A stretch of DNA of 44,125 nucleotides from Paracoccaceae bacterium (GTDB taxonomy: Bacteria; Pseudomonadota; Alphaproteobacteria; Rhodobacterales; Rhodobacteraceae), in assembly GCA_007694945.1 (NCBI GenBank), contig REER01000096.1, positions 1 through 44,125 on the forward strand, read 5' to 3'. Both the position numbers and the translations under genes were made by a program. A model generated the notes under the pieces. The model saw only the letters and a list, made by a program, of their open reading frames with translations, was not told where the DNA came from and did not search any database. This document shows, one piece after another, positions 55 to 14,693 of this stretch; within the stretch, counting starts at the first letter, position 1; the number at the start of each line of letters is the position of its first letter.

Positions 55-1062
55 TCAGGCCTGGGCGCAGAGACTGTCCTCAGCAAGCTGCGCCAGAATA
101 TCGACCCCCTGCATCTTGAGGAAATGCAGCATGTCGATAAAAATCCAATTCTCGGCCAGTTTGTCGCCCTCGCGGCGGTAGATATCGACCACGCGCATAT
201 CGCCCGTGGTCCCCGGCGGCAGGCCCATGAAGCCGCCGAGTGACGTCAGGGTCAGATTGGGCCAGCCGAAGAAACCGCCATAATGCCCCTCGGCCAGCCG
301 CGCGATATGGCCATTGAAGCGCCGGTCGGTCAGTTTGGTGCGGAAGGGGCGCTGGTGCTGTTCGATATAGCGCGAGATGGTACAGGTGGCGCCGATCCCC
401 TCCGGGCCCCACCAGAGCATGTCATCCGACCATGTCGCGGCGAGCTCCTCCTCGGGGCCACGAAACAGGTGGTGGTGATTGATTCCGCCGATCATGCGTC
501 CGATCAGGTCAAGCGTTCGGTTGCCCTCATCTGCAGGCTGCGGGGTGAGCAGGCGCCCATCATGCGTGGCCGGTCCCGGCTGGACCAGATGCGCGCCGGT
601 CTGATCGGGCAGCGGGGTGTAGCCAGCCTGCCGCATCAGGTGCAGCAGGTCGCAGAAAAAGGCGGTCTCGGCGATCTGGCCCGCCGTGACGCGATGGAAC
701 TCGGCATAGCGCAGCATGGTGATGCGCCGCGTCGGGCGCAGGCCGAGGAAGGGCGCATCAAACAGGCCCATCAGATGGCCCATCGACACCACCCAGGCGG
801 AGGCGAAACCATCGATCTGGTTGCGCCCGGCAAAGAAGATGTCCTCGCGCCGCTGCACGCGGGTGAAGGCCTGCAAGAAAGGCTGCCAGAAGGCTTGCGC
901 GACGGCGGGGGCGCCGCGCTGTTCGTGCCAGGGATGCATGCCGCGCCAGTGCCAGTCGGCATGGGTGTGTGCGGCCAGCGCCGTGGCGACAGTTTCGGGT
1001 GTGGCCGCGGCAAGTGCGGCGTGATGGGCGCGGAGGAGGGTTTTTTCGATCTGGAAGGTCAT
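55..1062 (-). CDS. SnoaL-like (NTF2-fold) double-domain protein
   Basis: A 335-residue protein made of two SnoaL/NTF2-like halves (roughly residues 5-150 and 175-325), each rich in Trp/Phe with the pattern of a cone-shaped alpha+beta fold. SnoaL-like proteins act as small-molecule cyclases, isomerases, hydratases or binding proteins, and no specific reaction can be assigned here. The second half carries a WWGPEGIG segment and an ENWIFIDMLHFL segment that match YGPAGIG and [12 protein letters not shown] in the protein at 7393-8430, so the two are paralogues. It lies downstream of the leftward transporter genes, separated from them by an 85-bp gap holding an intergenic repeat. It is probably co-transcribed with the transporter. 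The start is the first ATG; no strong ribosome binding site is visible. Confidence 0.75.
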   Translation of the reverse strand: MTFQIEKTLLRAHHAALAAATPETVATALAAHTHADWHWRGMHPWHEQRGAPAVAQAFWQPFLQAFTRVQRREDIFFAGRNQIDGFASAWVVSMGHLMGLFDAPFLGLRPTRRITMLRYAEFHRVTAGQIAETAFFCDLLHLMRQAGYTPLPDQTGAHLVQPGPATHDGRLLTPQPADEGNRTLDLIGRMIGGINHHHLFRGPEEELAATWSDDMLWWGPEGIGATCTISRYIEQHQRPFRTKLTDRRFNGHIARLAEGHYGGFFGWPNLTLTSLGGFMGLPPGTTGDMRVVDIYRREGDKLAENWIFIDMLHFLKMQGVDILAQLAEDSLCAQA

Positions 1063-1099
1063 CTGGGCTTGGCTTTTGAATGAGAGCCGGGGTGCTCCG

Positions 1100-1137
1100 C
1101 CCCCCGAACTCCTCCAGGATATTTGAACAAGGATGAA
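1100..1137 (+). repeat. Intergenic repeat, copy 1 (CTCC..ATATTT..CAAGGATGAA type)
   Basis: A 38-bp segment beginning with a C-run, then CTCCAGGATATTT, GAACAAGGATGAA. It matches, in opposite orientation, the element at 12124-12160 (GGAGTATTTCTGGCAAGATGAA after a C-run) and more loosely the one at 32532-32553. Elements of this look recur between genes in Rhodobacteraceae genomes. It fills most of the gap between the permease gene and the SnoaL-like gene. Confidence 0.5.
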
Positions 1138-1147
1138 TGGGGAAGGC

Positions 1148-2026
1148 TTATCCCTTGACGGCCCCTGCCGTGAGGCCCGAGACGATCTGGCGCTGGAAGA
1201 ACAGGATCAGCACGAAGAGTGGCGCTGTGGCCGAGACCACGGCGGCGACGGCGAACATGACATTGCCCTCAACCTGCGTAGAGCCGAGGAAAGAGGCGAT
1301 TTTCGGGATCATGGTCTGGTTCTGCTGGCTGAGCAGCATGGCGGTCACTGCGAAGTCGTTATAGGCCAGCAGGAAGCTGAACAGACCCGTGGTGATAACA
1401 CCCGGCCACATCACTGGCACGATGACATGGCGGAAGGCCTGAAACCGGGTGCAGCCATCGACCATGGCAGATTCGTCGAGATCCTTGGGGATGTTCAGGA
1501 AGAAACTGTGCAGCATCCAGAGCGTGAAAGGCTGGTTGATCGCCACGAGCACAATGATTGCCGTGGGCAGGTGGCCCCAGACATTCCACTGGAAGAAAGG
1601 CAGCAGATAGCCCGATACCAGCGTGATATGAGGCATCGCGCGGAACACCAGTGCGATCATCAGCAGCCAGAAGGTGTAGCGAAAGCCCGAGCGCGCCAGC
1701 GCATAGCCGCCCAACGTACCAAAGGTTAGCGAGATCACCACCACGCTGAACACCACGATGAAGGTGTTCAGCGTCGTGCGCCAGAACTCTTCCTGCACCC
1801 AGGCGCCATGGTAGCCCTGCCCGGTGAAATTGCTGCCGGTCTGGGCAATGGTGAAGGTGCCACGCAGCGCATTGCGCCAGTCGGCGAGCGAAAAGAAATC
1901 CGCCTGCACCTTGAAGCTGCCCCAGAGCGTCCAGAGGAAGGGGAAGGAGGCGACGACGATCCAAAGGAGCACAAGGCCAGTGGAGACCGTGACCAGCAGT
2001 GGTGAGCGGCGTTGCGTGGCGGCCAT
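1148..2026 (-). CDS. ABC transporter permease, CUT1/MalG-UgpE type
   Basis: A 292-residue inner-membrane permease with about six transmembrane helices. The cytoplasmic EAA loop (ESAMVDGCTRFQAFRHVIVP, about residues 190-210) is the coupling helix region that docks on the ATPase. The family imports sugars, polyols and glycerol phosphates. Its start lies 1 bp after the stop of the upstream permease gene (2028-3056), so the two are co-translated and presumably form a heterodimer. The matching ATPase is encoded divergently at 4561. No substrate can be read from the permease itself. Confidence 0.9.
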   Translation of the reverse strand: MAATQRRSPLLVTVSTGLVLLWIVVASFPFLWTLWGSFKVQADFFSLADWRNALRGTFTIAQTGSNFTGQGYHGAWVQEEFWRTTLNTFIVVFSVVVISLTFGTLGGYALARSGFRYTFWLLMIALVFRAMPHITLVSGYLLPFFQWNVWGHLPTAIIVLVAINQPFTLWMLHSFFLNIPKDLDESAMVDGCTRFQAFRHVIVPVMWPGVITTGLFSFLLAYNDFAVTAMLLSQQNQTMIPKIASFLGSTQVEGNVMFAVAAVVSATAPLFVLILFFQRQIVSGLTAGAVKG

Positions 2027-2027
2027 G

Positions 2028-3056
2028 TCAGTGCCTCTTGCGGTTGAAGTCGCGCCAGGTTCGGATCAACACCGGCGTGAGCAGGACGACGACGCCGAAG
2101 ATCGTCAGCATGGAGGTGGTCGCGGCGGCGCCGAACTGGGCGGCATCACCGCGGAGGTAGTTGAAGATATTGTAGCTCAGCGAAGTCGCGCTGGCCTGCG
2201 CCTGGAAGCCCACGATCGGCTCGAAGACGCGGAAATTGTCCATAAGCTGCATCAGCGTGATGAAGATCGCCAGCGGCATCAGATGCGGGATCACGACATA
2301 GCGGACGCGTTGCCAGCGGTTGGCGCCGTCGATCATCGCGGCCTCCAGCGGTTCCTCGGGCACAGTCTGCAACCCGGCGTAGAAAACGATGAAGGCGAAG
2401 GGCGCGGAGGACCAGACGCCATAGACGATCAGCATGATCCAGGTCAGCGTCGGCGAGGCCCGAAGTGAGAGCTCGGGGTCATTGGCTATGGTCTGCAGGA
2501 AGGACCCGAGCACCCCGCGACTGTCCACCATCCAGTAGAGCACCAGCGAGCCGATCAGCGGTGTGACGATCATCGGCAGCAGCGACACGAAGATCGTCGG
2601 CCCCCGGAAGATGCGCGGCAGCGAATTGACGCCAAGCGCGATGGCGAGCCCGAGGATGAGCACCAGTGGCGTGACGACGAAGGTGAAGGTCAGCGTGAAG
2701 GCCATCGCCCGCCAGAAGGGCAGGGTCATCGCGCGGCGGGTGAAGTCGGCGAAGCTGTCGGATCGCTCCCACATGCTGCGGATTTCTTCGGTGGCAAGGT
2801 GATTCCGGTCGGTGTAATTGCTGAAGCCCGCAAAGCGCCCCAGGGGTTGCGCCTCGCGCAATTCGCGCGTGGCCTCGCGGTCCACGATCGTTTCTTCCTC
2901 GCAGCCGAAGGGGCCGCAATTCTCGACCGTGCGCAACACCTGCTCATGTTCGACATGCAGCGACTGGATGAACACCGACACCACCGGCAGCGCGATGAAC
3001 AGGATCATCGCCAGTGCCGAGGGGAAGATGAACCAGAAGAACGTGCGGTGTTTCAT
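2028..3056 (-). CDS. ABC transporter permease, CUT1/MalF-UgpA type
   Basis: A 342-residue inner-membrane permease. An N-terminal helix (about residues 8-30) is followed by a long non-membrane stretch of about 75 residues with a Cys pair (NCGPFGC), probably periplasmic as in MalF-like proteins, then about five more helices. The EAA loop (PLEAAMIDGANRWQRVRYVV, about residues 235-255) is intact. It is the partner of the permease at 1148-2026 and lies 52 bp downstream of the solute-binding protein gene. The large periplasmic loop suggests contact with the binding protein. Confidence 0.9.
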   Translation of the reverse strand: MKHRTFFWFIFPSALAMILFIALPVVSVFIQSLHVEHEQVLRTVENCGPFGCEEETIVDREATRELREAQPLGRFAGFSNYTDRNHLATEEIRSMWERSDSFADFTRRAMTLPFWRAMAFTLTFTFVVTPLVLILGLAIALGVNSLPRIFRGPTIFVSLLPMIVTPLIGSLVLYWMVDSRGVLGSFLQTIANDPELSLRASPTLTWIMLIVYGVWSSAPFAFIVFYAGLQTVPEEPLEAAMIDGANRWQRVRYVVIPHLMPLAIFITLMQLMDNFRVFEPIVGFQAQASATSLSYNIFNYLRGDAAQFGAAATTSMLTIFGVVVLLTPVLIRTWRDFNRKRH

Positions 3057-3108: not shown

Positions 3109-4350
3109 TCAGTTCAAGAAGCCCTGTGAACGGGCAGCCGTGGTGTAAGCGGCCTCGATGGTTTCCAGCGTCTCTTCGGCGCTGGCCGAACCCTGCAGGA
3201 AGGGCGCAAGGTTGTCGCCCAGCGCCGTGTGCATCAGACCCATGTAGGGGGTCATCGGATAGGGCGCGGCGCCGCCCTCGGCACTGGCGATCACCCCGGC
3301 CGAAGCGGGCGTCGGCGCGTAGCCCTCGCCCAGCCAGACGGCCAGCGCCGAATTTTCGGCCATGCGCTCGGGCGTGATGCCGTTCAGCATGGCCTGGAAG
3401 CTGGCGGCGGCATCTTCATCCGAGGTATTCGCGGCGATGGTGAACCCGTCCCACCACAGCGTCGTTGCCGGACGCCCGTCCGCGCTGGCGCTGGGCGCCG
3501 CGGCCAGAACCGTCGACTCGACGATCTCGTCGGTGGTGTTGTCCCCCGATAGGATTCCCGCCCCGCGCGAGCCCCAATGCAGCATCAGCGCCACCTCGCC
3601 CGCTTCCCACAGCGACTGGACCGAGTTCGAGTCGAAGGTCAGGAAATCCGGGTCGGAGAAGCTGGTCAGCGCCTGCAGCGCCTCGAGCGCGGCCATCCCC
3701 TCGGGGCTGTTGACCGCCGGTTCCGCCGAGCCCGGCTCGAAGAAGCGCCCGCCATGGCCGAGATGCAGGTTGACGAACTCCTGCGCGAGGTTCCACCCCG
3801 CGCCCGAGACCATGGCCACGGGGTGGCGCATCAACTCCTGCGCGCGGATCGCCTCGGCAGCGGCCAGCACATCCTCGATGGTCTCGGGCGCATTAACCCC
3901 GGCGGCCTCGAGAATATCGGCCCGGTAGAACAGATGCTGTGCATTGGCCATGAAGGCCACGGCCATGATATTGCCCTCGATCCGAACAAGCTGCGTCGGC
4001 TGCAGCCAGTCGCCATATTGCTCGACCAGATCATCCAGCGGGCGGATCAGCCCGGCATTCAACAGCGGCACGATCGAGCCATTGGCGACCACCGCCACCG
4101 AGTGTTGCGACGGGTTCGCGGTCAGCGCTGCCACCTGCAGGTCACGGTGATCCGAGGTCAGGTTGGCACTGACGCTTACGTTGTCGGTGGCGCAGGCGCG
4201 CGCGCCGTCGATCACGGCCTGCAGGGCCGGAAAGTCATTGCCGAGGATCGAGACATTGCCCGTCTCGATCCCGCAATCGGCCTGCGCTGCGCTGGTAAGC
4301 CCTAAGGCCAGCACTGAAGCGCTGGCAGCAAGGCGGAAATATTGTGTCAT
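3109..4350 (-). CDS. Extracellular solute-binding protein, family 1 (CUT1 transporter)
   Basis: A 413-residue periplasmic binding protein. The start at 4350 is chosen because MTQYFRLAASASVLALG gives a clean Sec signal peptide with an AQA cleavage site before DCGIETG, and a GGGAG ribosome binding site lies 8 bases upstream; an ATG 57 bases further upstream would spoil the signal. The body has the usual family-1 features, including a SLWEAGEVALMLHWGSRG segment and Trp/Tyr-rich ligand-site stretches typical of carbohydrate or polyol binding. It is the first gene of the leftward transport unit. The operator at 4403-4416 lies directly over its probable promoter, so expression is likely repressed without substrate. 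Confidence 0.9.
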   Translation of the reverse strand: MTQYFRLAASASVLALGLTSAAQADCGIETGNVSILGNDFPALQAVIDGARACATDNVSVSANLTSDHRDLQVAALTANPSQHSVAVVANGSIVPLLNAGLIRPLDDLVEQYGDWLQPTQLVRIEGNIMAVAFMANAQHLFYRADILEAAGVNAPETIEDVLAAAEAIRAQELMRHPVAMVSGAGWNLAQEFVNLHLGHGGRFFEPGSAEPAVNSPEGMAALEALQALTSFSDPDFLTFDSNSVQSLWEAGEVALMLHWGSRGAGILSGDNTTDEIVESTVLAAAPSASADGRPATTLWWDGFTIAANTSDEDAAASFQAMLNGITPERMAENSALAVWLGEGYAPTPASAGVIASAEGGAAPYPMTPYMGLMHTALGDNLAPFLQGSASAEETLETIEAAYTTAARSQGFLN

Positions 4351-4402
4351 GCTGGCGTCTCCCTGATTGTGGCAATGCGCCGCCGCGAATCGCCTTACGG
4401 TT

Positions 4403-4416
4403 TGCATACGATTGCA
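4403..4416. promoter_or_regulatory. Putative LacI-family operator O1
   Basis: TGCATACGATTGCA, an imperfect dyad centred on CG with TGCA ends, typical of LacI/GalR sites. It differs at one base from the site at 4525-4538. A TTTAAT -10-like hexamer for the leftward transcript lies at 4421-4416, so the operator covers the expected leftward start point. Confidence 0.65.
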
Positions 4417-4478
4417 TTAAAGCACAGTTTTTCTCGCTCAGAAGAAATAACTCCAACCAGATGCATTTTTTGTATCCT

Positions 4479-4508
4479 TTGCAAATATGTTATTGCCAGA
4501 ATGATAAT
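4479..4508 (+). promoter_or_regulatory. Putative sigma70 promoter of the rightward catabolic operon
   Basis: TTGCAA at 4479-4484, an 18-bp spacer and GATAAT at 4503-4508 give a plausible -35/-10 pair in an unusually AT-rich stretch. The predicted start near 4515 lies just ahead of the operator at 4525-4538 and 45 bp ahead of the ATPase start codon. Confidence 0.5.
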
Positions 4509-4524
4509 TTCCTGACAGCTTTTG

Positions 4525-4538
4525 TGCATACGTTTGCA
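4525..4538. promoter_or_regulatory. Putative LacI-family operator O2
   Basis: TGCATACGTTTGCA, a nearly perfect inverted repeat centred on CG (half-sites TGCATACG and TGCAAACG). It sits about 10-25 bases downstream of the predicted rightward start site, a classical position for a LacI-type roadblock. It matches the site at 4403-4416 in 13 of 14 bases. Confidence 0.7.
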
Positions 4539-4560
4539 AATCAGCTCTCGGGGGACGCGA

Positions 4561-5610
4561 ATGGGCCAGATAGAATTGCGCAACCTGTCCAAACGCTGGG
4601 GCACATTCGTCGGGGTTCATGCCTTTGACCTGACCATCGCCGACAAGGAGTTCATCGTGCTGCTGGGGCCATCGGGCTGCGGCAAGACCACCACGATGCG
4701 CATGATCGCCGGGCTCGAGGACATCACCGAGGGCGATGTGCTGATCGATGGCAAGCGGGTGAACACGCTCGAGCCCAAGGACCGCGACATCGCCATGGTG
4801 TTCCAGTCCTACGCGCTCTATCCGAACATGAACGTCTATGACAACATCCGTTTCCCGCTGAAGGTGCGCGGGGTGCCGCAATCCGAACATGACGCCAAGG
4901 TGCGGCGCGCAGCTGATATGGTCGAGTTGGGTCCGTTCCTGCATCGCCGCCCGGGTGAATTGTCTGGCGGCCAGCGCCAGCGCGTAGCCCTCGCCCGCGC
5001 CGTGGTGCGCGAGCCGAACCTCTTCCTGATGGATGAGCCGCTGTCCAATCTCGACGCGAAGCTCCGCGTCTCGACCCGCGCGCAGATCAAGAATCTCAGC
5101 CACCAGCTTGGTGTGACCACGATCTATGTCACCCATGACCAGATCGAGGCGATGACGCTCGCCGACCGCGTGGTGGTCATGAAAGCGGGCATCGTACAGC
5201 AAGTCGGCACCCCGACCGAGATCTATGACCGCCCCGCCAACACATTTGTTGCCGGTTTCATCGGCACCCCGGCCATGAACCTGATGGAGGGTGAGGTTTC
5301 GGGCGGTGTCTTCGCGGGAGAGAATGTCCATGTCGAAGGCGTCTCTGCGCCTGATGGCCCGGTGATCCTTGGATTTCGGGCCGAAGACGCGCTTATGGTG
5401 CCAGGCGACGGTCAAATCTCGGCGCCGGTCTACTCGCTGGAGCTTCTGGGCGACGCCACCATGGCGACCGTGCGCGCAGGCAATGCCATTGTCTCGATCA
5501 AATGCCCCAAGGAGTTTCGCACCGAGATAGGCGCGCCGTTTCAGGCCCAGATCCCGGCGGAGGCCGTGCATCTGTTCGATCTTGACTCGGGCGCAAGGAT
5601 CGACGGGTAG
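4561..5610 (+). CDS. ABC transporter ATPase, MalK/UgpC type
   Basis: A 349-residue cytoplasmic ATPase that powers the transporter encoded at 1148-4350. Walker A is GPSGCGKTT (residues 36-44), followed by a Q-loop, the signature SGGQRQR, Walker B LFLMDEP, a D-loop and the H-loop VTHDQ. A C-terminal regulatory region of about 110 residues with an OB/TOBE-like pattern (GFRAEDA) follows, as in MalK. The start is the ATG at 4561 with GGGGGA upstream; an earlier in-frame start would put the operator inside the gene. It is the first gene of the rightward operon, 4 bp ahead of the next gene, so transporter parts are split across two divergent units under the same operators. Confidence 0.92.
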   Translation: MGQIELRNLSKRWGTFVGVHAFDLTIADKEFIVLLGPSGCGKTTTMRMIAGLEDITEGDVLIDGKRVNTLEPKDRDIAMVFQSYALYPNMNVYDNIRFPLKVRGVPQSEHDAKVRRAADMVELGPFLHRRPGELSGGQRQRVALARAVVREPNLFLMDEPLSNLDAKLRVSTRAQIKNLSHQLGVTTIYVTHDQIEAMTLADRVVVMKAGIVQQVGTPTEIYDRPANTFVAGFIGTPAMNLMEGEVSGGVFAGENVHVEGVSAPDGPVILGFRAEDALMVPGDGQISAPVYSLELLGDATMATVRAGNAIVSIKCPKEFRTEIGAPFQAQIPAEAVHLFDLDSGARIDG

Positions 5611-5614
5611 ACCC

Positions 5615-6082
5615 ATGGACCAGACTGCCCGGACCCTGGCCGTGATCACGGCGATGCAATCTGCGCTGGCAGAGGGGTCGGACGATATGGGGGTGCATTT
5701 CCACGAGGATTTCCTCTGGCGCGGCAATCGCGGCTGCGGCACCAAACGCGGGCTGGATGCCTTCCGCAATGTCTGGCAACTGCCCCTGCGCGCGGCCTTT
5801 ACCGAGCGTAGCTACCATACCGAACAGATGATCGCGCAGGGCGACTGGGCCGCGGGTTTCGGGCATATCGAGGCTACGCATTCCGGCCCCTTTATGGGGA
5901 TCGCACGCACCGGGGCGCGCGTGCGAATTCCTTACATGGATTTCTGGCGCGTCGCCGAGGGGCGGATTGCCGATAATCCCGTCTTTGTCAATTTCGCCGC
6001 TGTGCTGCATCAACTTGGACGCAATGTGTTCGCTGGTGAGGGCTGGGAGGCCCTTGATACGCCCGATCAGGAGGAAGCTTGA
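5615..6082 (+). CDS. SnoaL-like (NTF2-fold) single-domain protein
   Basis: A 155-residue single SnoaL-like domain. It shares the pattern of its larger neighbours: an early FLWRGNRGCG segment, a central GDWAAGFGHIEATHSGPFMGI segment, and a PYMDFWRVAEGRIADN segment like those of polyketide-cyclase-like proteins. The start is the ATG at 5615, 4 bp after the ATPase stop; a TTG 33 bases upstream would overlap the ATPase gene. The stop is 3 bp before the next start. The reaction is unknown. Its position between the ATPase and the dehydrogenase says it belongs to the same pathway. Confidence 0.75.
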   Translation: MDQTARTLAVITAMQSALAEGSDDMGVHFHEDFLWRGNRGCGTKRGLDAFRNVWQLPLRAAFTERSYHTEQMIAQGDWAAGFGHIEATHSGPFMGIARTGARVRIPYMDFWRVAEGRIADNPVFVNFAAVLHQLGRNVFAGEGWEALDTPDQEEA

Positions 6083-6085
6083 GCC

Positions 6086-7396
6086 ATGACCATCAGCCAT
6101 CTGAAGACCGCCAAGCCCGAGGCCGAACGTGCTGAAGACGACGCGAGGGTGCGCGCCACGGTCGAGGCGACGCTGGCCGATATCGAGGGGCGTGGCGATG
6201 CGGCCGTGGCCGAGCTCAGCGCCAAATTCGATGGCGTTTCGCGGCCCAGCTTCCGATTGACGCAATCGGAGATCGAAGCCGCCATGGCCAAGGTCTCGGC
6301 GCGCAACATGGAGGATATCCGCTTCGCCCAGACCCAGATCCGCCGCTTCGCCGAGGCGCAGCGCGCGTCGATGACCGATATCGAAATCGAAACCCTGCCC
6401 GGCGTGATCCTCGGCCACAAGAATATCCCCGTGCAATCGGTGGGTTGCTATGTGCCGGGCGGCAAGTTCCCCATGGTCGCCTCGGCGCATATGTCGGTGC
6501 TGACCGCGACGGTCGCAGGCGTCCCGCGCATCGTGGCCTCGGCCCCGCCGCACAAGGGCGAGCCGCACCCCGCCATTGTGGCCGCCATGCATCTGGGCGG
6601 CGCGCATGAAATCTACGTCCTTGGCGGCATTCAGGCCGTGGGCGCCATGGCCATCGGCACCGAGACCATCGAGCCCGTGCACATGCTCGTCGGCCCCGGC
6701 AACGCCTTCGTCGCCGAGGCCAAGCGCCAGCTTTACGGCCGCGTTGGTATCGACCTCTTCGCGGGACCGACCGAGACCATGGTCATCGCCGATGACACAG
6801 TCGATGCCGAACTCTGCGCGACCGACCTTCTTGGACAGGCCGAACACGGCTACAACTCGCCCGCCGCGCTGATCACCAATTCGCGCAGGCTGGCCGAGGA
6901 CACGATCGCCGAGGTGGACCGCCTTCTGGCGATCCTTCCCACCGCCGAGACAGCGGCGACAAGCTGGCACGACTATGGCGAGGTGATCCTCTGCGACACG
7001 CATGAGGAAATGCTGCAGGTGGCGAATGACATGTCATATGAGCATGTGCAGGTCATGACCGACCGCGATGACTGGTATCTGCAAGAGATGCACAGCTACG
7101 GCGCGCTCTTCCTCGGCCCGCGCACCAATGTCGCCAACGGCGACAAGGTGATCGGCACCAACCACACCCTGCCCACCAAGAAGGCCGGGCGTTATACGGG
7201 CGGTCTGTGGGTCGGCAAGTTCCTGAAAACCCACTCATACCAGCGCATCACGTCGGATGAAGCCGCCACACAGATCGGGGAATACGGCTCGCGCCTGTGT
7301 ATACTCGAGGGCTTCGTTGGCCATGCCGAGCAATGCAACATCCGCGTGCGCCGTTATGGCGGCAGGAATGTGCCTTACGGGGTCGCCGCGGAATGA
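6086..7396 (+). CDS. Histidinol dehydrogenase-family zinc alcohol dehydrogenase (HpsN-like)
   Basis: A 436-residue HisD-family enzyme, expected to use Zn and NAD to oxidise a primary alcohol to a carboxylate in two steps. By alignment to E. coli HisD the metal ligands are present as Q251, H254, D353 and H413 (motifs GQAEHG, GDKVIG, GHAEQ), and the catalytic Glu-His pair is E319-H320. It lacks his-operon neighbours and has [13 protein letters not shown] and HGYNSPAAL segments that resemble sulfopropanediol 3-dehydrogenase HpsN more than biosynthetic HisD. Its C-terminal tail ([11 protein letters not shown]) differs from my memory of both. I infer a catabolic dehydrogenase acting on a diol-type substrate. 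DHPS is possible, but no sulfite-releasing lyase lies nearby. Confidence 0.85.
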
Positions 7397-8430
7397 CCTC
7401 CTCGGAGATGAAGACAGCGCTGGCACCTTTCCAAAAGGCCGCTGCGACCGCGACACCGGACGCTCTGCGCAGGGTACTGGCGCAGGTCATGGCGGCAGAT
7501 GCGGACCTGAAGATCTGCGCGCCCTTTGGCACGCTTAAGGGACCACAGGCGCTATACCATAGATGCTTCGCCCCGCTTCTGGCCGCGATGCCAGATCTGG
7601 AGCGGCGCGACATGATCGTGCTCGCGGGCACCACGCCAGAGGGTCAGCATTGGGTCGGCTGCATGGGCAATTACGTGGGCACGTTCTGCGCGCCTTTCCT
7701 TGATATTCCGCCAACCGGATTGCTGACACATATGCGCTATCACGAGTTCTTTCGCCTGGACTCTGGCTGCGTGGTCGAGATGCAGGCGATCTGGGACATC
7801 CCGGAACTGATGATGCAGGCTGGTGCATGGCCCATGGCGCCGCAGCTTGGGGTCTTCATGGCGACCCCAGCGCCGATGACGCAGGATGGGCTGCGCGCCA
7901 CGGGTGACGGTCACGCCGCGACGGATCATGTGCTGGCCATGCTGACGGATCTGTGCCGCCACCCGGCCGAGCCTGATCCTGCCGTGATGAAGCTGCCCGC
8001 GTATTGGCACCCAAGGTTCAACTGGTATGGCCCGGCGGGTATCGGCACAGCGCGCGGCATTTCGGGGTTTCGCCACTGGCACCAGATCCCGTTCCTGCGC
8101 GCCATGCCCGATCGCGGGCTCGATAGCGGCGGGCTGCACAGCCATTGGGTGGCCGAGGGCAACTATACTTGCGAAACCGGCTGGCCCAACATGCGCCTGA
8201 CCATCACGAATGACGGCTGGCTGGGCATCGCGCCCGCAGGCCAGCAGATCACACTGCGCAGTCTCGATTTCTGGCGGCTGGAAGAGGGGTTGATCCGCGA
8301 AAACTGGGTGCTGGTCGATCTGCTGGACATGTGGGCGCAAATCGGTGTCGATGTTCCGGGGCGGATGCGCGAGTTCAACAAGCGGCGCAGTCTGGCCCCG
8401 ATCCAAATGGACCAAGGATTGACCGCATGA
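7393..8430 (+). CDS. SnoaL-like (NTF2-fold) double-domain protein
   Basis: A 345-residue protein with two SnoaL-like halves (about residues 10-150 and 185-325). It is paralogous to the protein at 55-1062 and has a similar length. Shared landmarks include [12 protein letters not shown] in the first half, and [13 protein letters not shown] and [13 protein letters not shown] in the second. The ATG at 7393 overlaps the dehydrogenase stop as ATGA, giving translational coupling; a longer in-frame reading from 7297 would lie inside the dehydrogenase gene. Function is unknown. A partner role in isomerising, cyclising or hydrating the dehydrogenase product is an inference only. Confidence 0.75.
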
Positions 8431-9191
8431 CCCTTCCTCGTACCCCGTCTTTCGAACTGCATGGCAAACATGCGCTGGTCACGGGCGCCTCATCCGGCAT
8501 TGGCCTGGCATGCGCAGCCGCACTGGCAGAGGCGGGCGCGCATGTCACGATGGTCGCGCGCGGGGTTGCGCGTCTGGATGACGCCTGTGCGCAGATCACC
8601 CATGCGGGTGGCAGTGCTATGGCGCAGGCCCTCGATATTGCCGATATCGCGGCTCTGCGCGATTTCATCGCCGCCAAAGGCCCGTTCGATGTGCTGGTCA
8701 ATGCCGCAGGCACGGCCCGCCACAGCCCCGCGCTGGACACCACCGAGGAAGATTTTGACGCGGTGGCGGCCGTGAATATCAAAGCCGCCTATTTCGCGGC
8801 CCAAGCGGTCGCGCAAGGACTGATCATGGCAGACAGACCCGGCAGCATCATCCAGATATCCAGCCAGATGGGCCATGTCGGTGGCGTGGAGCGTACTGTC
8901 TATTGCGCGAGTAAACACGCGGTTGAAGGCATGACCAAGGCCATGGCAATGGAGTGGGGACCGCAGGGCATTCGCGTCAACACGATCTGCCCGACTTTCA
9001 TCCTGACGCCGCTGACACAAGCCACCTTCGACAATCCCGAGCGCCGCGCCTGGATCGAAAGCAAGATCAAGCTCGGCCGCGTGGGCGAGGTCGAGGATAT
9101 CATGGGGGCGGTGCTCTACCTCGCGTCAGACGCCAGCGCGCTGGTCACGGGCACATCCCTCAAGGTCGATGGCGGGTGGACAGCCGGATGA
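8427..9191 (+). CDS. Short-chain dehydrogenase/reductase
   Basis: A 254-residue classical SDR. It has the cofactor motif TGASSGIG near the N terminus, NAAG at the end of the fourth strand, a Ser of the active site in QISSQMG, and the YCASK motif holding catalytic Tyr and Lys. Arg near the end of the second strand (VARG) suggests NADP(H) use, but this is weak. The ATG overlaps the upstream stop as ATGA with AAGGA ahead. In known sulfonate diol pathways an SDR works beside an HpsN-type enzyme to interconvert enantiomers or make a ketone; the same division of labour is plausible here. Confidence 0.88.
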   Translation: MTLPRTPSFELHGKHALVTGASSGIGLACAAALAEAGAHVTMVARGVARLDDACAQITHAGGSAMAQALDIADIAALRDFIAAKGPFDVLVNAAGTARHSPALDTTEEDFDAVAAVNIKAAYFAAQAVAQGLIMADRPGSIIQISSQMGHVGGVERTVYCASKHAVEGMTKAMAMEWGPQGIRVNTICPTFILTPLTQATFDNPERRAWIESKIKLGRVGEVEDIMGAVLYLASDASALVTGTSLKVDGGWTAG

Positions 9192-10207
9192 GCATCGCGG
9201 GCCGCATCACGGCACAGGATGTTGCGAAACTCGCGGGTGTCAGCCAGTCGGCGGTCAGTCGTGTCTTTACGCCCGGCGCCAGCGTCGCACCCAAGACCGC
9301 CGCAAAGGTGCGCGCCGCCGCCAAGACCCTTGGCTATCGTCCCAATTCGCTGGCGCGGGCCATGATCACGGGCAAAAGCCGGATCATCGGGCTGGTTGTG
9401 GCCTATCTGGACAATCAGTTCTATCCGGTCGCCATCGAAAAACTCAGCCATGCCTTGCAGGCCAAGGGCTATCATGTGCTGCTTTTCATGGCCTCGAACG
9501 ATCCGGGCGAAATGGACCGGCTGATGGATGATCTGCTGGCCTATCAGGTGGACGGGATCATCACCGCCTCGGTCGCGATCAGCAATGACGTGACGCGCCG
9601 CTGCGCCGATGCGGGCATCCCGCTGGTGATGTTCAATCGCGGCCAGCCGGGTTCGGGGCTCTCTTCGGTCACCTCGGCCAATGCGCTCGGCGGGCGCAAG
9701 GTCGCCGAATTCCTGCTTGCAGGCGGGCACCAGCGCATCGCTCATATCAGCGGCTGGCAAGGGGCCAGCACTGGCCGCGACCGCGCGCGCGGTCTGATCG
9801 AAGGACTGGCCGAGGCAGGTCTCGCACCGCACGCGATGATTGACGGGATGTTCAACCGTGACAAGGCAGCGGCGGCGGCGCGCGAGTTGATGGACAGCCC
9901 CGATCCGACTGACGCGATCTTTGTCGGCAATGACCACATGGCCTTTGCCGTCATCGACAGCCTGCGCGCCATGGGGCTGCGCGTGCCACAGGATGTCTCG
10001 GTCGTGGGCTATGACGATGTGCCAATGGCGGCCTGGGGTGCGTATGATCTGACCACGGTGCGCCAGCCGCTGGTGCGCATGGTCGATGCCACAGTCGAGA
10101 CGCTGCTGGCGCAGATCGACGACCCCGCGCGCGGCGCACAGGCGGTCGAGATAGATGCGCCGCTCATCCTGCGCGGCTCGGCGCGCCTGCCAGAGGAGGG
10201 AACATGA
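9188..10207 (+). CDS. LacI-family transcriptional regulator
   Basis: A 339-residue LacI/GalR regulator. The N-terminal helix-turn-helix is evident (QDVAKLAGVSQSAVSRVF, about residues 9-26), followed by the hinge (GYRPNSLARAM) and a periplasmic-binding-protein-like effector domain ending in VVGYDDVPMA and a TTVRQP segment. It starts at ATGA overlapping the SDR stop, so it is made from the same message as the pathway enzymes. It is the natural candidate to bind the two TGCATACGnTTGCA sites at 4403 and 4525, making the operon autoregulated. The effector is probably the imported compound or an early intermediate. Confidence 0.9.
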   Translation: MSIAGRITAQDVAKLAGVSQSAVSRVFTPGASVAPKTAAKVRAAAKTLGYRPNSLARAMITGKSRIIGLVVAYLDNQFYPVAIEKLSHALQAKGYHVLLFMASNDPGEMDRLMDDLLAYQVDGIITASVAISNDVTRRCADAGIPLVMFNRGQPGSGLSSVTSANALGGRKVAEFLLAGGHQRIAHISGWQGASTGRDRARGLIEGLAEAGLAPHAMIDGMFNRDKAAAAARELMDSPDPTDAIFVGNDHMAFAVIDSLRAMGLRVPQDVSVVGYDDVPMAAWGAYDLTTVRQPLVRMVDATVETLLAQIDDPARGAQAVEIDAPLILRGSARLPEEGT

Positions 10208-11160
10208 GCGATCGCTTCTGGGGGGAATGGCGTGATTTCCCCGATTATATCATCGACATCACCCGTCGCATCTGGGAAGGCCGCGATATCGAGAGCCTGA
10301 ACCGCCTCTATGCGCCCGAGATCCCGGTGCGCACGCCAATGGGGGTGGCGAAAGGCAATCAGGGTGTGATCGCCTCCACCATGGCGACGCTGCATGAATT
10401 CCCCGACCGCCAGTTGCTGGCCGAGGATGTCATCTGGTCAGAGACCGAGGGGCATCACCTCTCCTCGCATCGCATCCTGTCTACCGGCACGCATCTGGGC
10501 GAGGGCTATTTCGGCGCGGCCACTGGCAAGCGCTTCGCCATCCGCGTGATCGCCGATTGCGCTGCGCGTGATGGCGTGATCGATGATGAATGGCTGGTGC
10601 GCGACAATGGCGGGCTGATCCGCCAGCTTGGCGGGGCCCCGAGCGCCTTCGCGGCTGCGCTCATTTCCAGCGAAAGCCCGCCCAAACCTTACACGCCCAA
10701 GGCCGATATTCCCGGCCCTTACCCCGGCTGCGGCAATGCCAGTGATTTTGGCGCGTGCTATGCCGACACGCTCTGCGCGCTCATGTCGGGCCAGCTTGAG
10801 CCAAAGGCCTATGACCGCGCGGCACAGGCCGAACATGCTGGTGCGCGCCTTCTCATCGGCGCTGAAGCCATCGCGCAAAACTGGCTCGCCCTGCGGGCGT
10901 CATTCCCTTCCGCCATTTTCACCATCCACCACCAGATCGGGCGCGAAGACCCGCTGATGCCCCCGCGCGCGGCAATTCGCTGGTCGCTGCACGGCACCCA
11001 TGACGGCTGGGGCGCCTTTGGCCGCCCCACCGGTGCGCCGGTGCATGTGATGGGCATGGCCCATGCCGAATACGGCCCATGGGGCCTGCGCCGCGAATGC
11101 GCGCTTTGGGATGAAGTCGCGATCTGGACCCAAATCCTCCTCCATACAGGTGAGACATGA
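10204..11160 (+). CDS. SnoaL-like (NTF2-fold) double-domain protein
   Basis: A 318-residue protein with two NTF2-like halves. The first (about residues 10-145) has the recognisable ester-cyclase pattern, with a NRLYAPEIPVRTPMG segment and a GVIDDEWLVRDNGGLIRQLG segment; the second (about 175-310) ends with GMAHAEYGPWG and DEVAIWTQILLHTG. It is more diverged from the 55-1062 and 7393-8430 proteins than they are from each other. Start and stop are both ATGA overlaps, with lacI upstream and the bicupin downstream. Its role is unknown; tight coupling implies stoichiometric production with pathway enzymes. Confidence 0.75.
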   Translation: MSDRFWGEWRDFPDYIIDITRRIWEGRDIESLNRLYAPEIPVRTPMGVAKGNQGVIASTMATLHEFPDRQLLAEDVIWSETEGHHLSSHRILSTGTHLGEGYFGAATGKRFAIRVIADCAARDGVIDDEWLVRDNGGLIRQLGGAPSAFAAALISSESPPKPYTPKADIPGPYPGCGNASDFGACYADTLCALMSGQLEPKAYDRAAQAEHAGARLLIGAEAIAQNWLALRASFPSAIFTIHHQIGREDPLMPPRAAIRWSLHGTHDGWGAFGRPTGAPVHVMGMAHAEYGPWGLRRECALWDEVAIWTQILLHTGET

Positions 11161-12122
11161 CCCCGCAAGAGATGGAAGCCCGCATCGTCCGCTATGGCGA
11201 GCTGCGCCCCTGCAAGACCGCCTTCATCGACGCCCATACCCCGGGCAGCGACCAGAAGGAGAATTTCACCATCATCGGTGGCGGGGTGTCCGAGAGCGCC
11301 GACCAGCATGTGCATATCGTCGACACGCCTGGCTTCAATATTGGTGCCGCGGGCCAGCCGCCCCATTGCCGGAACTCGCTGCACTCGCACCGTACGGCAG
11401 AGGTGTTCTTCGTGCTTAAGGGTCGCTGGCGCTTCTTCTGGGGGCGCTGGGGGACCGCCGGAGAGGTGGTGCTGGAAGAGGGCGATATCTTCAACATCCC
11501 CACAGGCATCTTTCGCGGCTTCGAGAATATCGGCACCGATTACGGGATGATCATGGCCATTCTGGGTGGCGATGACGCCGGGGGCGGCGTGATCTGGGCG
11601 CCGCAAGTGATCGAGGATGCGCGCGATCACGGGCTGGTGCTGGGCGAGAATGGCAAGCTCTTTGACAGCAAGCAGGGCCAGCACCTGCCCGAGGGCGTGG
11701 CCCCGATGCCACTGCTGACCGAGAAGCAACTGACAGCCTATCCCGAGCCCACAACTGCCGATGTGATCCCCCATTACGTCGCGCGCTACTGGGATCTGAT
11801 GGCGCTCGCCGATCGCCGGCCCGCCTGTGTCATCGGCGAGACTGGCCTCTTGCGCGACCGCCCTGGCTTCGAGGTGAATTTCCTCACGCGCAGCAGCGCG
11901 CCCGAGACCCCTCAGCCCCATGATCGCGCATCGGTTCTGATGCCCCTGCGCGGCCATTGGCGGCTGACATGGGAGGGTGGCGAAGCCACATTGAACCCCG
12001 GCGATACCTGCCTTGTACCCGAGAACCTGCCCCATGCAGTCGTGCCCGCCATGACGGGAGAGGCGAGCCTCTATCAGGTCATCGGGACGGATGATCCAGC
12101 CGGTCCCACCCGCACCTCCTGA
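11157..12122 (+). CDS. Bicupin protein with partly degenerate metal site
   Basis: A 321-residue two-cupin protein. The N-terminal cupin has a good motif 1 (HSHRTAE: H76, H78, E82, then G89), but motif 2 reads PTGIFRGFEN, with Arg where the metal-binding His normally stands. The C-terminal cupin keeps the fold (LRGHWRLTWEGGEATLNPGD, then VPENLPHAV) but has no HxH. The layout resembles gentisate-dioxygenase-like bicupins, yet loss of the fourth ligand argues for an isomerase, lyase, sensor or non-standard metal site. It is ATGA-coupled to the SnoaL-like gene. A strong hairpin follows the stop. Confidence 0.75.
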   Translation: MTPQEMEARIVRYGELRPCKTAFIDAHTPGSDQKENFTIIGGGVSESADQHVHIVDTPGFNIGAAGQPPHCRNSLHSHRTAEVFFVLKGRWRFFWGRWGTAGEVVLEEGDIFNIPTGIFRGFENIGTDYGMIMAILGGDDAGGGVIWAPQVIEDARDHGLVLGENGKLFDSKQGQHLPEGVAPMPLLTEKQLTAYPEPTTADVIPHYVARYWDLMALADRRPACVIGETGLLRDRPGFEVNFLTRSSAPETPQPHDRASVLMPLRGHWRLTWEGGEATLNPGDTCLVPENLPHAVVPAMTGEASLYQVIGTDDPAGPTRTS

Positions 12123-12123
12123 T

Positions 12124-12173: not shown

Positions 12174-12199
12174 CCTTCCTCAAGAAAAGGACGAACCCC

Positions 12200-13321
12200 A
12201 TGCCCCTGCGCACCACCCATGTCGGCTCACTCCCCCGCTCGCAGGCGGTGGTCGATTTCCTGTTTGCCCGTGAAGGCGGAGAGGGTTACGACGCGTCCGC
12301 CTTTGACGCCTGCATGGCCGAGGCGGTGATGGAAAACGTCCGCCGTCAGAAGGTAGCTGGGATTGATATCGTCTCGGATGGCGAATGCTCCAAGATCAGC
12401 TATGCAACTTACGTCAAAGACCGCTACACGGGCTTTTCCGGCGACAGCCCGCGCAACGCGCCCGCTGATCTCAAGCTCTTCCCCAGCTTCCTCGAGCGCC
12501 TCGCCAAATCCGGCGGCACACCGACCTATGTGCGGCCTCAATGCACCGGGCCGGTCGAGAGCAAGGGGCAGGAGGAGTTGCTCAAGGACATCGCCAATCT
12601 CGAGGCTGCGATGGCCGCGCACGGGGTCGAGCACGGTTTCATGAACGCGGCCTCGCCGGGGGTGATTTCGCTCTTCCTGCAAAACGCCCATTACCCCGAC
12701 AGGCAGGCCTATCTTGACGCGCTGGCAGATGCTATGCGCGACGAATACAAGACAATCCTCGATGCGGGCCTCGCGCTGCAACTTGACTGCCCGGACCTCG
12801 CACTCTCGCGGCACATGCTGTTCACTGACCTCAGCGATGCCGAGTTCGTCAAGGTCGCCGAAACCCATGTCGCCGCGCTCGAACGCGCGCTCGACGGGCT
12901 GCCGAAGGAGAACGTCCGACTGCACATCTGCTGGGGGAATTACGAGGGCCCCCATTGCTGCGATATCGACATGGCGACCATGCTCCCGCTGCTGATGCGG
13001 GTGCCCGCGCGTTATGTGCTCTTCGAGACGTCGAACCCCCGCCACGGCCACGAATGGACCGTGTTCCGCGACCGGGCGGGTGACATCCCGTCCGACAAGG
13101 TGCTGATCCCGGGCGCCGTGGACACGACCACCAATTTCATCGAGCACCCCGAGTTGGTGGCGCAACGGCTGGAACGTTTCACCGACATCGTGGGCCCCGA
13201 GCGTGTCATCGCCGGAAGCGACTGCGGCTTCGGCACCTTCGCAGGCTTCGGCGCGGTGGACCCGGAAATCGCCTGGGCCAAGCTTGCGACTCTCGCCGAA
13301 GGAGCGAAGCGCGTCGCATGA
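12200..13321 (+). CDS. MetE-like zinc enzyme (UROD/MetE superfamily; alkyl transferase-like)
   Basis: A 373-residue single-barrel relative of the catalytic half of cobalamin-independent methionine synthase. The N terminus has THVGSLPR, typical of the family. All four zinc ligands of MetE-type enzymes can be placed: H242 and C244 (HIC), E276 (FETSN) and C342 (SDCGF). The zinc normally activates a thiol for attack on an alkyl group, as in MetE and epoxyalkane:coenzyme M transferase. At half MetE length and inside a catabolic operon it is unlikely to be a methionine synthase; transfer of a methyl or other alkyl group from the substrate to a thiol is the best guess. AAGG lies upstream of the start. 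Confidence 0.82.
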   Translation: MPLRTTHVGSLPRSQAVVDFLFAREGGEGYDASAFDACMAEAVMENVRRQKVAGIDIVSDGECSKISYATYVKDRYTGFSGDSPRNAPADLKLFPSFLERLAKSGGTPTYVRPQCTGPVESKGQEELLKDIANLEAAMAAHGVEHGFMNAASPGVISLFLQNAHYPDRQAYLDALADAMRDEYKTILDAGLALQLDCPDLALSRHMLFTDLSDAEFVKVAETHVAALERALDGLPKENVRLHICWGNYEGPHCCDIDMATMLPLLMRVPARYVLFETSNPRHGHEWTVFRDRAGDIPSDKVLIPGAVDTTTNFIEHPELVAQRLERFTDIVGPERVIAGSDCGFGTFAGFGAVDPEIAWAKLATLAEGAKRVA

Positions 13322-14004
13322 CCCCGCTCGTGCTCATCCCCGGCATGATGTGCGATGCGCGCATGTGGGGCGGCATCCCTGCCGCTCTCGCCCCGCGCGC
13401 CATACACCACGCCATGCCGGTTGCGGGTGAGACTATCGCCGATATGGCTGCCGCGATCCTGCGCGATGCGCCGGAGCGTTTCGCACTGGCGGGGCTGAGC
13501 ATGGGTGGAATCGTGGCGATGGAGATGCTGGAACAGGCGCCCGAGCGTATCGAGCGCCTCGCGCTGATGGACACCAACCCCTTGGCCGAACCCCCCGAGG
13601 TCGCCGCGCGCCGCGGCCCGCAGATCGCCCGCGCGCTGGGGGGCGATCTGGACGGTGTCATGCGCGACGAGATGAAGCCCAACTACCTTGCCGACCCAGA
13701 GGATACGGACACGCTCGATCTGTGCATGGCGATGGCGCGCGATCTGGGACCCGAGATCTTCCGGCGCCAGTCACTGGCGCTGAAAACCCGCGCCGACCGC
13801 ACCGAAACGCTCAAGCGCTTCACTGGCCCGGCGCTCGTGCTCATGGGCGAACATGACCGCCCCTGTCCGCGCGACCGGCACGAATTGATGCATGCGCTGA
13901 TGCCGCAATCGCGCCTTGTCATCATCCCCGAGGCCGGACACCTGCCGCCGCTGGAACAGCCCGAACCCACGATTGCGGCCCTCAAGGAATGGCTGGAAAC
14001 ATGA
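13318..14004 (+). CDS. Alpha/beta hydrolase
   Basis: A 228-residue compact alpha/beta hydrolase. The nucleophile elbow is GLSMGG with S61, the acid is D180 (GEHDRP) and the base is H208 (AGHLPP), so the triad is complete. A PGMMCD segment early in the sequence may form part of the oxyanion hole. It probably cleaves an ester, lactone or thioester in the pathway. The start is an ATGA overlap with the MetE-like gene; the stop overlaps the start of the RraA-like gene. Confidence 0.87.
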   Translation: MTPLVLIPGMMCDARMWGGIPAALAPRAIHHAMPVAGETIADMAAAILRDAPERFALAGLSMGGIVAMEMLEQAPERIERLALMDTNPLAEPPEVAARRGPQIARALGGDLDGVMRDEMKPNYLADPEDTDTLDLCMAMARDLGPEIFRRQSLALKTRADRTETLKRFTGPALVLMGEHDRPCPRDRHELMHALMPQSRLVIIPEAGHLPPLEQPEPTIAALKEWLET

Positions 14005-14693
14005 CCCCAGATCTGCTGACCCTCCTGCAACGCGTCGATACCCCCACGGTCTGCAATGCCATCGAAGTGGTGCAGGGCAGGCGCGGGTTTGATGCCTTCA
14101 CACGCGGCACGATGCTGTGTTCCGAGCTGGGGCGCAGCGTGGTGGGCTATGCCGTGACGGCGCAGATTGCCGCTTTGGCACCCCCGAGTGAGCCCCCCGC
14201 CGTGATCCGCACCCGCCGCATGGCCTATTACAAGGCCATGCATGACGCGCCCAAGCCATCGGTCGCGGTGATCGAGGATCTGGATTTCCCCGATTGCATC
14301 GGCGCTTATTGGGGCGAGGTGAACACCACGATCCACAAGGGGTTCGGCATGTCGGGCGCGCTGACCAATGGGGTCATGCGAGATCTGGGCGATCTGCCCG
14401 AGGGCTTTCCGGTCATTGCGGGCAGTACGGGGCCAAGCCACGGTTTCGTGCATGTGCGCAGCCTTGGCGAGCCTGTGACGATATTCGGGTTGCGCGTGGC
14501 GCAGGGCGATCTGATCCATGCCGACCGTCACGGCGCGCTGGTCATCCCGCCCGAGGTGGTCCCGGGGCTCACCGGAGGCATTGAAAAACTGCTCGCGACC
14601 GAAAAGCTCATCCTCGACCCCGCCCGCGCGCCGGGCTTCGATTTCGCCACCTTCGAGCAGGCCTGGGCCGCTTTCGAGGAAGCGCGGAACTGA
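14001..14693 (+). CDS. RraA-family aldolase/decarboxylase-like protein
   Basis: A 230-residue RraA-fold protein. In this family, members outside the RNase E regulator group are class II pyruvate aldolases such as HMG aldolase and oxaloacetate decarboxylase. The expected active-site pattern is present: WGEVNTTIHKG, then GALTNGVMRD with R127-D128. Length is close to that of catabolic members. The start at 14001 (ATGA overlap) is preferred over an in-frame ATG at 13989 because it matches every other junction in the unit. It is the last gene of the operon, 5 bp from the convergent LrgB-type gene. I infer the terminal aldol cleavage giving pyruvate or oxaloacetate. Confidence 0.85.
   Translation: MTPDLLTLLQRVDTPTVCNAIEVVQGRRGFDAFTRGTMLCSELGRSVVGYAVTAQIAALAPPSEPPAVIRTRRMAYYKAMHDAPKPSVAVIEDLDFPDCIGAYWGEVNTTIHKGFGMSGALTNGVMRDLGDLPEGFPVIAGSTGPSHGFVHVRSLGEPVTIFGLRVAQGDLIHADRHGALVIPPEVVPGLTGGIEKLLATEKLILDPARAPGFDFATFEQAWAAFEEARN

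Follow-up and report, generated by a model that had tools for sequence, protein, structure and literature searches.

A stretch of 44,125 nucleotides from a Paracoccaceae bacterium (assembly GCA_007694945.1, contig REER01000096.1), here called the window, carries a cluster of 15 genes at 55-14693. All coordinates without a contig or locus label are positions in the window. The cluster appears to encode a LacI-controlled system for the import and degradation of a small molecule, predicted to be cyclic. Four genes on the minus strand (a binding protein, two permeases, and a SnoaL-like protein) and eleven on the plus strand diverge from 4351-4560. The plus-strand arm contains, in order, genes for an ATPase, a SnoaL-like protein, a HisD-like dehydrogenase (HisD1), a second SnoaL-like protein, a short-chain dehydrogenase/reductase (SDR), a LacI regulator, a third SnoaL-like protein, a bicupin, a MetE-like protein, a hydrolase, and an RraA-like protein. 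From HisD1 on, most adjacent plus-strand genes share 4 bases, an overlap suggestive of translational coupling; the bicupin and MetE-like genes do not overlap. Position 1 is the start of the contig, and any gene to the left of 55 lies beyond the available sequence. All of the genes named in the initial annotation, which described a self-regulated catabolic unit, are present with profile matches in this region.

The ATP-binding cassette (ABC) importer of the CUT1 type is complete, with a UgpC-type ATPase, two BPD_transp_1 permeases, and an SBP_bac_1 binding protein. The binding protein has only distant PDB relatives, all of them weak (best E 1.2e-10). Three of the SnoaL-like proteins (335, 345, and 318 amino acids) are about twice as long as the fourth, snoB (155 amino acids), whose best PDB relative is the polyketide cyclase 1sjw (E 2.2e-8). 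A role in polyketide biosynthesis was rejected, since no polyketide synthase or carrier protein is among the families found in the cluster. The divergent snoA is also present in L004, L005, L006, and L015. On a plasmid of Vibrio pelagius, four SnoaL genes accompany a CUT1 importer close to sarcosine oxidase genes (L014, 5496-15134), and the same plasmid carries otn, bicupin, and HpcH genes elsewhere (L100).

Recurrence and co-occurrence of the gene set

The gene set recurs in other bacteria. Four cluster proteins were compared by tblastn with 72,556 plasmid records, and matches were found in 156 records for the MetE-like protein, 381 for HisD, and 53 each for snoD and the bicupin. Clusters in Ruegeria sp. 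THAF33, R. conchae, Marinovum algicola, and Paracoccus alcaliphilus closely resemble that of the window in gene content and in the order of the core genes. All four have the importer genes on the strand of the enzymes and snoA alone divergent. The importer split over a divergent promoter, which was part of the initial annotation, is seen in the window but is one of two arrangements among relatives. The THAF33 cluster has an additional S-adenosylmethionine methyltransferase and that of R. conchae an additional SnoaL gene, the P. alcaliphilus cluster has no MetE-like gene, and the SDR was not found in the Marinovum stretch. When 84,980 species genomes were scanned with the bicupin, at least 562 relatives were obtained, of which the best 80 were kept. 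HisD1, SDR, or OtnK lies within 12 kb of the bicupin in 73 of the 92 loci with a bicupin match by tblastn. Some loci are short fragments, and the L071 stretch has a match to the RraA-like protein only. Counts of cluster loci come from tblastn or whole-genome searches and not from gene orders based on open reading frames (ORFs), which are incomplete and include shadow ORFs. Flags for the second HisD type cross-match HisD1 and SnoaL flags cross-match each other, and both are excluded from exact counts.

Co-occurrence was determined by whole-genome searches of 196 genomes sampled evenly from the order. Strong matches were defined by E values below 1e-100 for the bicupin and MetE-like protein (set after the tables had been seen), 1e-150 for HisD1, 1e-70 for snoD, and 1e-60 for the RraA-like protein. 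By these thresholds the bicupin is found in 93 genomes, the MetE-like protein in 85, HisD1 in 100, snoD in 95, and the RraA-like protein in 72. The bicupin and snoD occur together in 91 genomes (bicupin only in 2, snoD only in 4). The corresponding numbers are 83, 10, and 2 for the MetE-like protein, 90, 3, and 10 for HisD1, and 70, 23, and 2 for the RraA-like protein. Fisher p-values for the four pairs range from 4e-30 to 4e-48, and they overstate independence because the genomes are related. All five proteins are present in 59 genomes.

The bicupin and MetE-like genes are unlinked in 15 of the 83 genomes that have both. They are on different contigs in 12, where a contig break may explain the separation, and far apart on one contig in three (G009, G069, G133). 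In six of the 15 the bicupin adjoins the RraA-like gene (G007, G009, G029, G069, G079, G119). HisD1 is with the MetE-like gene in nine and with the bicupin in six, and an action of HisD strictly after the aldolase is not forced by this distribution. In G029, the two ends of a bicupin gene survive as remnants beside the MetE-like gene (C1:752947-753196), and the full-length copy elsewhere adjoins the RraA-like gene.

Judged by gene content, the grouping is not due to chance, because the set recurs in other genomes and its members co-occur genome-wide. The absence elsewhere that would have spoken against the initial annotation is not seen in Rhodobacterales, and its view of the genes as a self-regulated import-and-degrade unit is well supported by these sequence comparisons. 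The word island that it used is misleading, as about half of the sampled genomes carry the set. It did not recognize the set as a described pathway, and this holds within open-licence PMC literature, where no description of the gene set or of a mycosporine catabolic cluster was found among the titles listed; absence from that literature is weak evidence of novelty.

A LacI-type operator in the divergent promoter

The divergent promoter contains two near-palindromes (copies 1 and 2 in Table 1). A pattern made from the pair has three strand matches in the window compared to 0.73 expected, and two of 100 shuffles reach three. Copy 2 is the only site in the organism's own genome with two or fewer mismatches to a perfect palindrome, and the scan of this genome for that palindrome gives 10 strand matches compared to six for a backward control. 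By themselves these near-palindromes are modest evidence, and the case for an operator rests on the sites in relatives. The LacI-type palindrome TTGCATACGTATGCAA recurs in the promoters of relatives. The motif TTGCANACGNNTGCAA, with up to one mismatch, has 88 unique sites in 53 of 102 sequences (the window and L004 to L104), while the motif read backwards has one. The motif gives 161 strand hits, in which a palindrome is mostly counted twice; 30 shuffles of its letters give zero to four in 29 cases and 18 in one. No listed site is inside a gene matching a window protein, a check made without a gene list for the window and for L096 onwards.

The exact motif is found in 79 of the 196 genomes, and the control gives six strand hits in four genomes. 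The bicupin is present in 74 of the 79, and 19 bicupin genomes do not have the exact motif. The operator also lies 34-120 bases before five stand-alone bicupins (L021, L036, L049, L085, L092) and one on a 5.6-kb fragment (L086). More distant occurrences are between LacI and MFS genes in Pantoea (L096), before a cupin in Deinococcus (L097), and at three places in Novosphingobium (L101). These sites support an old LacI regulon with a putative operator, and the LacI switch of the initial annotation is backed both by the regulator gene and by this conserved motif.

For five operator sites the nearest cluster gene is over 2 kb away (L006, L043, L045, L071, L093). Seventeen hand-picked off-cluster sites, among those listed for the 196 genomes, have mixed neighbors that do not settle the substrate, including ABC importers with SnoaL, amidase, GMC oxidoreductase, GDPD, and GH4 genes, and at some sites nothing relevant. 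A second HisD subfamily adjoins an amidase in L110 (5887-8667) and L096 (776-3462), with a regulon operator beside it in L110. GMC oxidoreductases are found within importer operons near regulon operators in L112 (7008-8513) and L123 (10527-11996).

Table 1. Genes and putative operator copies of the cluster, with the profile matches on which the names are based
Feature	Position	Strand	Evidence
SnoaL-like double-length protein (snoA)	55..1062	-	PF07366 43.6 bits, cut-off 28.4, one stretch
CUT1 permease, MalG-like	1148..2026	-	PF00528 68.6 bits, cut-off 26.4
CUT1 permease, UgpA/MalF-like	2028..3056	-	PF00528 53.4 bits, cut-off 26.4
Extracellular solute-binding protein	3109..4350	-	PF01547 75.1 bits, cut-off 26
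Putative LacI-type operator copy 1, TTGCATACGATTGCAT	4402..4417		3 mismatches to perfect palindrome; assigned by comparison with relatives
Putative LacI-type operator copy 2, GTGCATACGTTTGCAA	4524..4539		2 mismatches to perfect palindrome
ABC ATPase, UgpC subfamily	4561..5610	+	NF008653 446 bits, cut-off 432
SnoaL-like single-domain protein (snoB)	5615..6082	+	PF07366 70.8 bits
HisD-superfamily Zn/NAD dehydrogenase, GKFPM/GDK subfamily (HisD1)	6086..7396	+	PF00815 442 bits
SnoaL-like double-length protein (snoC)	7393..8430	+	PF07366 59.7 bits, two stretches
Short-chain dehydrogenase/reductase (SDR)	8427..9191	+	PF13561 197 bits
LacI-family regulator	9188..10207	+	PF00356 and PF13377 above cut-off
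SnoaL-like double-length protein (snoD)	10204..11160	+	PF07366 65.4 bits, two stretches
Bicupin	11157..12122	+	Cupin_2 54 bits; HxHx3E and Arg invariant in N-terminal cupin
MetE-like protein, catalytic domain only	12200..13321	+	PF01717 44.9 bits, cut-off 21
Alpha/beta hydrolase, PcaD/BioH-like	13318..14004	+	PF12697 62.6 bits; PcaD model 77.7 bits, below its cut-off of 255.85
RraA-like class II aldolase candidate	14001..14693 (ORF also open from 13989)	+	PF03737 62.5 bits, cut-off 24.5

On the 3' side of the cluster (14699-16532) is an LrgB-family gene, unrelated in appearance, and a small membrane protein just upstream of it on the same strand that we presume to be LrgA/CidA-like. From their translations, the genes at 36786-44019 are presumably suf iron-sulfur genes (two cysteine-desulfurase-like proteins, SufB, SufC, and SufD).

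Enzymes of the cluster and their replacements

The closest solved structures to HisD1 are dehydrogenases of sulfopropanediol (DHPS), and an SDR gene is in the same operon. One explanation of the cluster is therefore DHPS degradation, with the HisD-like protein as HpsN and the SDR as HpsO. As described in the available portion of PMC11382572, HpsN and HpsO of Cupriavidus pinatubonensis are likewise a HisD-fold, four-electron Zn/NAD alcohol dehydrogenase and an SDR. HisD1 residues E319, H320, D353, K354, Q251, H254, and H413 are invariant in seven sequences and were aligned to 8v35. The catalytic Glu318/His319, Asp352, and Lys353 and the zinc ligands Gln248, His251, and His411 of HpsN are all kept. 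In the same portion of PMC11382572, His126 of HpsN recognizes the sulfonate, and GRY(A/S)H is the signature motif. HisD1 instead reads GKFPM, with Met at the position of His126. Among 60 HisD sequences collected, 49 have KFPMV with K, one has KYPMV with K, nine belong to a second type with RFPLL or RYPLL, and one is cut. HisD1 also differs from histidinol dehydrogenase, whose loops are GSAPL and GDY, in having GKFPM and GDK. GDY was taken as a HisD trait from alignments, and it is present in L003 of the organism's own genome. In Sinorhizobium medicae ml29, HisD is in two frames (L013:3945-5527), while several other rhizobial records match in one piece.

The surrounding genes also argue against DHPS. 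SuyAB, Xsc, and CuyA are not among the families matched by the 15 cluster proteins, and the window adds SnoaL, bicupin, MetE-like, and aldolase genes to the HpsN/HpsO pair. Another contig of the same genome encodes a GRYAH-type HpsN (C117:33964-35262, L104). Beside it are genes that we take, from their translations, to be an SDR, a zinc alcohol dehydrogenase, and an NMT1-type ABC importer, and together they are likely a DHPS set. Since His126 is replaced by Met and a true HpsN set is found elsewhere, a DHPS pathway was rejected for the window cluster, for which it is very improbable.

The RraA-like protein has the expected catalytic residues of its fold, as R131 and D132 are at least 90% conserved in 26 homologues and the window protein. 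In 67 clustered loci the sequence extends 3.5 kb or more beyond the bicupin on the downstream side, and two types of aldolase occur in them: the RraA-like protein only in 41, HpcH/HpaI only in 9, and both in 1. The replacement is also found among close relatives (L034, L047, and L062, with bicupins 78-80% identical). The best model matches of the three HpcH proteins tested from bicupin clusters are of the HpaI or GarL type (E 2e-45 to 3e-55) and stay under the equivalog cut-offs. The available portion of PMC5065237 describes HMG/CHA aldolase (RraA fold) and HpaI as structurally distinct class II pyruvate aldolases. Because HpcH/HpaI aldolases stand in the place of the RraA-like protein, the simplest reading is that it too is a pyruvate aldolase. 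The HMG/CHA aldolase of gallate and protocatechuate 4,5-cleavage, as presented there, shares with it the family and the catalytic Arg-Asp. The window cluster differs in having no 4,5-dioxygenase genes, and its RraA-like protein scores 21.5 bits against the LigK CHA aldolase model TIGR02798, whose cut-off is 304.5.

A second replacement involves the dehydrogenases. HisD1 and SDR were not found in the stretches L099, L100, and L103, which have OtnK and an OtnC-type aldolase with the bicupin, hydrolase, and HpcH, and an OtnI-type isomerase in L100 and L103. OtnK of L099 (456 compared to 350) and OtnC of L103 (286.5 compared to 250) pass their NCBIfam cut-offs, while OtnI of L103 does not (279 compared to 325). 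The family assignments show a 3-oxo-tetronate kinase and decarboxylase in place of HisD and SDR, with HpcH/HpaI in place of the RraA-like protein. Both replacements constrain the chemistry, and from them we infer that the pathway yields pyruvate and a C4 acid in which a CH2OH group is adjacent to a keto or hydroxy carbon. The C4 acid would be either oxidized by HisD1 and SDR or phosphorylated by OtnK. OtnI, OtnK, and OtnC are absent from the window cluster, and the C4 node is probably common to the 3-oxo-tetronate pathway and the bicupin clusters.

The bicupin is highly conserved at its predicted metal site. All ten aligned sequences have HxHx3E and, where the last His would normally stand, an Arg; they include the Deinococcus relative, which has the N-terminal cupin only. 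Its best relative, below threshold, is 3-hydroxyanthranilate dioxygenase (NCBIfam E 0.0016), and PDB relatives are weak (3-hydroxyanthranilate dioxygenase E 0.088, others worse). The organism's own genome has a second, weaker pair of bicupin-like stretches (C111:4560-5621, 43% and 30% identity).

The MetE-like protein resembles the cobalamin-independent methionine synthase II family in its conserved HxC, E, and C, a zinc-type His-Cys-Glu-Cys pattern whose residues we take to be zinc ligands. It differs in consisting of the catalytic domain only and in falling below the cut-offs of all five NCBIfam models that it matches (best 82.1 compared to 406), and it follows a catabolic gene set, unlike that family with its role in methionine synthesis. 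The gene need not serve methionine synthesis, because the genome has a MetH-type domain, and a housekeeping methionine synthase was rejected on this ground. The neighbors of the MetE-like gene are different in Halobaculum (L008) and Rhodococcus (L009). In two sphingomonads the gene shares a stretch with glycine-cleavage-T-type, metF, and purU genes, and in Croceicoccus this stretch also has LigAB and ligK. Such one-carbon neighbors fit methyl transfer from a methoxy group. They would also agree with a pathway for lignin-type methoxylated aromatics by O-demethylation and ring cleavage, and both RraA-like and PcaD-like families occur in aromatic pathways. However, no LigAB, intradiol dioxygenase, aldehyde dehydrogenase, or T-protein-type demethylase is among the families found in the cluster, the importer is of the CUT1 type, and the four SnoaL proteins would be left unexplained. 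Degradation of methoxylated aromatics is improbable.

Candidate substrates and significance

Mycosporines, 4-deoxygadusol, and gadusol are C7 methoxy-cyclohexenones. The cluster is tentatively read as a LacI-controlled import-and-degrade regulon whose leading candidate substrate is a compound of this family, a combined reading that may well be wrong; the substrate by itself is rather doubtful. The chemistry would be oxidative opening of a cyclic enol followed by retro-aldol cleavage to pyruvate and a C4 hydroxy-keto acid. The CUT1 importer would take up a non-phosphorylated cyclic substrate, and SnoaL-like enzymes, with the amidase and second HisD in some relatives, would strip or rearrange its substituents. 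The MetE-like zinc protein may remove an activated methyl group, and the 2-His/1-Glu bicupin and hydrolase may open the ring oxidatively. The RraA-like protein or HpcH would then carry out the class II retro-aldol cut, and SDR and HisD would act on the CH2OH, either in the C4 unit or ahead of cleavage, with malate or oxaloacetate as the product.

For a mycosporine the predicted steps are release of the amine, demethylation to a reductone, and ring opening to 4-hydroxy-4-(hydroxymethyl)-2-oxoadipate, which by structural analogy is a close relative of the substrate of HMG/CHA aldolase. Retro-aldol cleavage would give pyruvate and 4-hydroxy-3-oxobutyrate, and reduction of the latter would give 3,4-dihydroxybutyrate. 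This compound corresponds to DHPS with a carboxylate for the sulfonate, and its oxidation gives malate. Alternatively, HisD1 could act first, giving CHA and then oxaloacetate. Gadusol would lead to 3-oxo-tetronate, the substrate of OtnK.

Some observations in the literature are relevant to mycosporines. The available portion of the review PMC3083659 reports a suggestion that Vibrio harveyi hydrolyzes shinorine and porphyra-334, and this is the kind of first step that a SnoaL/CUT1 module could do. The same portion links no genes to the activity; the V. pelagius site with a CUT1 importer and four SnoaL genes may be set beside it. The review also places mycosporine-glutaminol in terrestrial fungi and cyanobacteria, and this compound would suit the amidase and second HisD of some clusters, such as L096. 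PMC9007349 makes no mention of histidinol, cupin, SnoaL, or RraA. The cluster could encode complete bacterial mineralization of mycosporine-like amino acids and gadusols, a pathway for which the searches of open-licence PMC literature gave no description. In it SnoaL proteins would release the amino acid, the MetE-like protein would remove the methyl group, and the bicupin would open the ring. RraA/HpcH aldolase and an HpsN-like dehydrogenase would complete the route to pyruvate and either malate or oxaloacetate, with control by a LacI operator common across phyla. In this full form the proposal is unlikely.

Several findings weigh against a mycosporine regulon of this kind. The predicted dioxygenase role of the bicupin is based on its metal motif and sub-threshold similarity to 3-hydroxyanthranilate dioxygenase. 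Mycosporines are methoxylated, and the MetE-like gene is absent from 10 of the 93 bicupin genomes and 21 of the 67 clustered loci. Sixteen of these loci have neither aldolase nearby, and an RraA-like protein of alginate catabolism acts as a dehydratase/decarboxylase according to the available part of PMC8563752. SnoaL content varies among clusters, with none in K. michiganensis (L098). HisD1 may serve a wider purpose, because it occurs without the bicupin in 10 of the 196 genomes and in other contexts (L011, L012). In nine of the 80 bicupin loci the stretch examined has no other cluster gene (L021, L036, L049, L076, L079, L080, L085, L092, L093). For the operator, the organism's own genome has no exact site, and it has three-mismatch sites at copy 1 and three other places. 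A search allowing one mismatch gave no operator in 36 of the 80 GTDB loci, some of them short, or in L011, L012, L014, L098, L099, L100, and L103, and five of the 79 exact-motif genomes have no bicupin. CUT1 proteins usually carry sugars and polyols. In L127 and L128, both of genus g8, a cluster of an ABC importer and an MGH1-like glycoside hydrolase (by Pfam in L127 only) lies next to the HisD1 arm, which hints at glycosides.

In a related explanation the regulon and aldolase logic are the same and the substrate is another sugar-like compound such as a glycoside, aminosugar, amide-linked polyol, or branched sugar acid. The bicupin would then be an isomerase and the MetE-like protein an auxiliary one-carbon enzyme. 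Several features agree with it: the CUT1 importer and LacI regulator, which are typical of carbohydrates; the Otn module, which is a pathway for sugar acids; the MGH1-like hydrolase; genes for GMC oxidoreductase or amidase close to other operator sites; and the clusters without a MetE-like gene. On the other hand, the window cluster has no sugar kinase or glycoside hydrolase, the MetE-like protein tracks the bicupin genome-wide even when unlinked, and no KduI- or IolB-type family is listed for the bicupin at E values up to 5. A sugar-like substrate is a real possibility that falls somewhat short of probable.

Overall, the sequence comparisons establish a conserved gene set that co-occurs across genomes, a putative palindromic operator, and the aldolase and Otn replacements. 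Roughly half of the genomes sampled from the order have the set, and related modules that carry this operator extend to Deinococcus, Pantoea, and Novosphingobium. The substrate is probably abundant in nature, because so many bacteria keep a dedicated regulon for it. Mycosporine-like amino acids and gadusols are ultraviolet sunscreens of algae, corals, cyanobacteria, and fungi. If the substrate is a mycosporine, the regulon would explain how the large pool of carbon and nitrogen in algal and fungal sunscreens is recycled. Joint tests of a distinct HisD subfamily, a highly conserved bicupin, and a MetE-like enzyme are now feasible for any substrate, and the operator provides a means of finding further members of the regulon.

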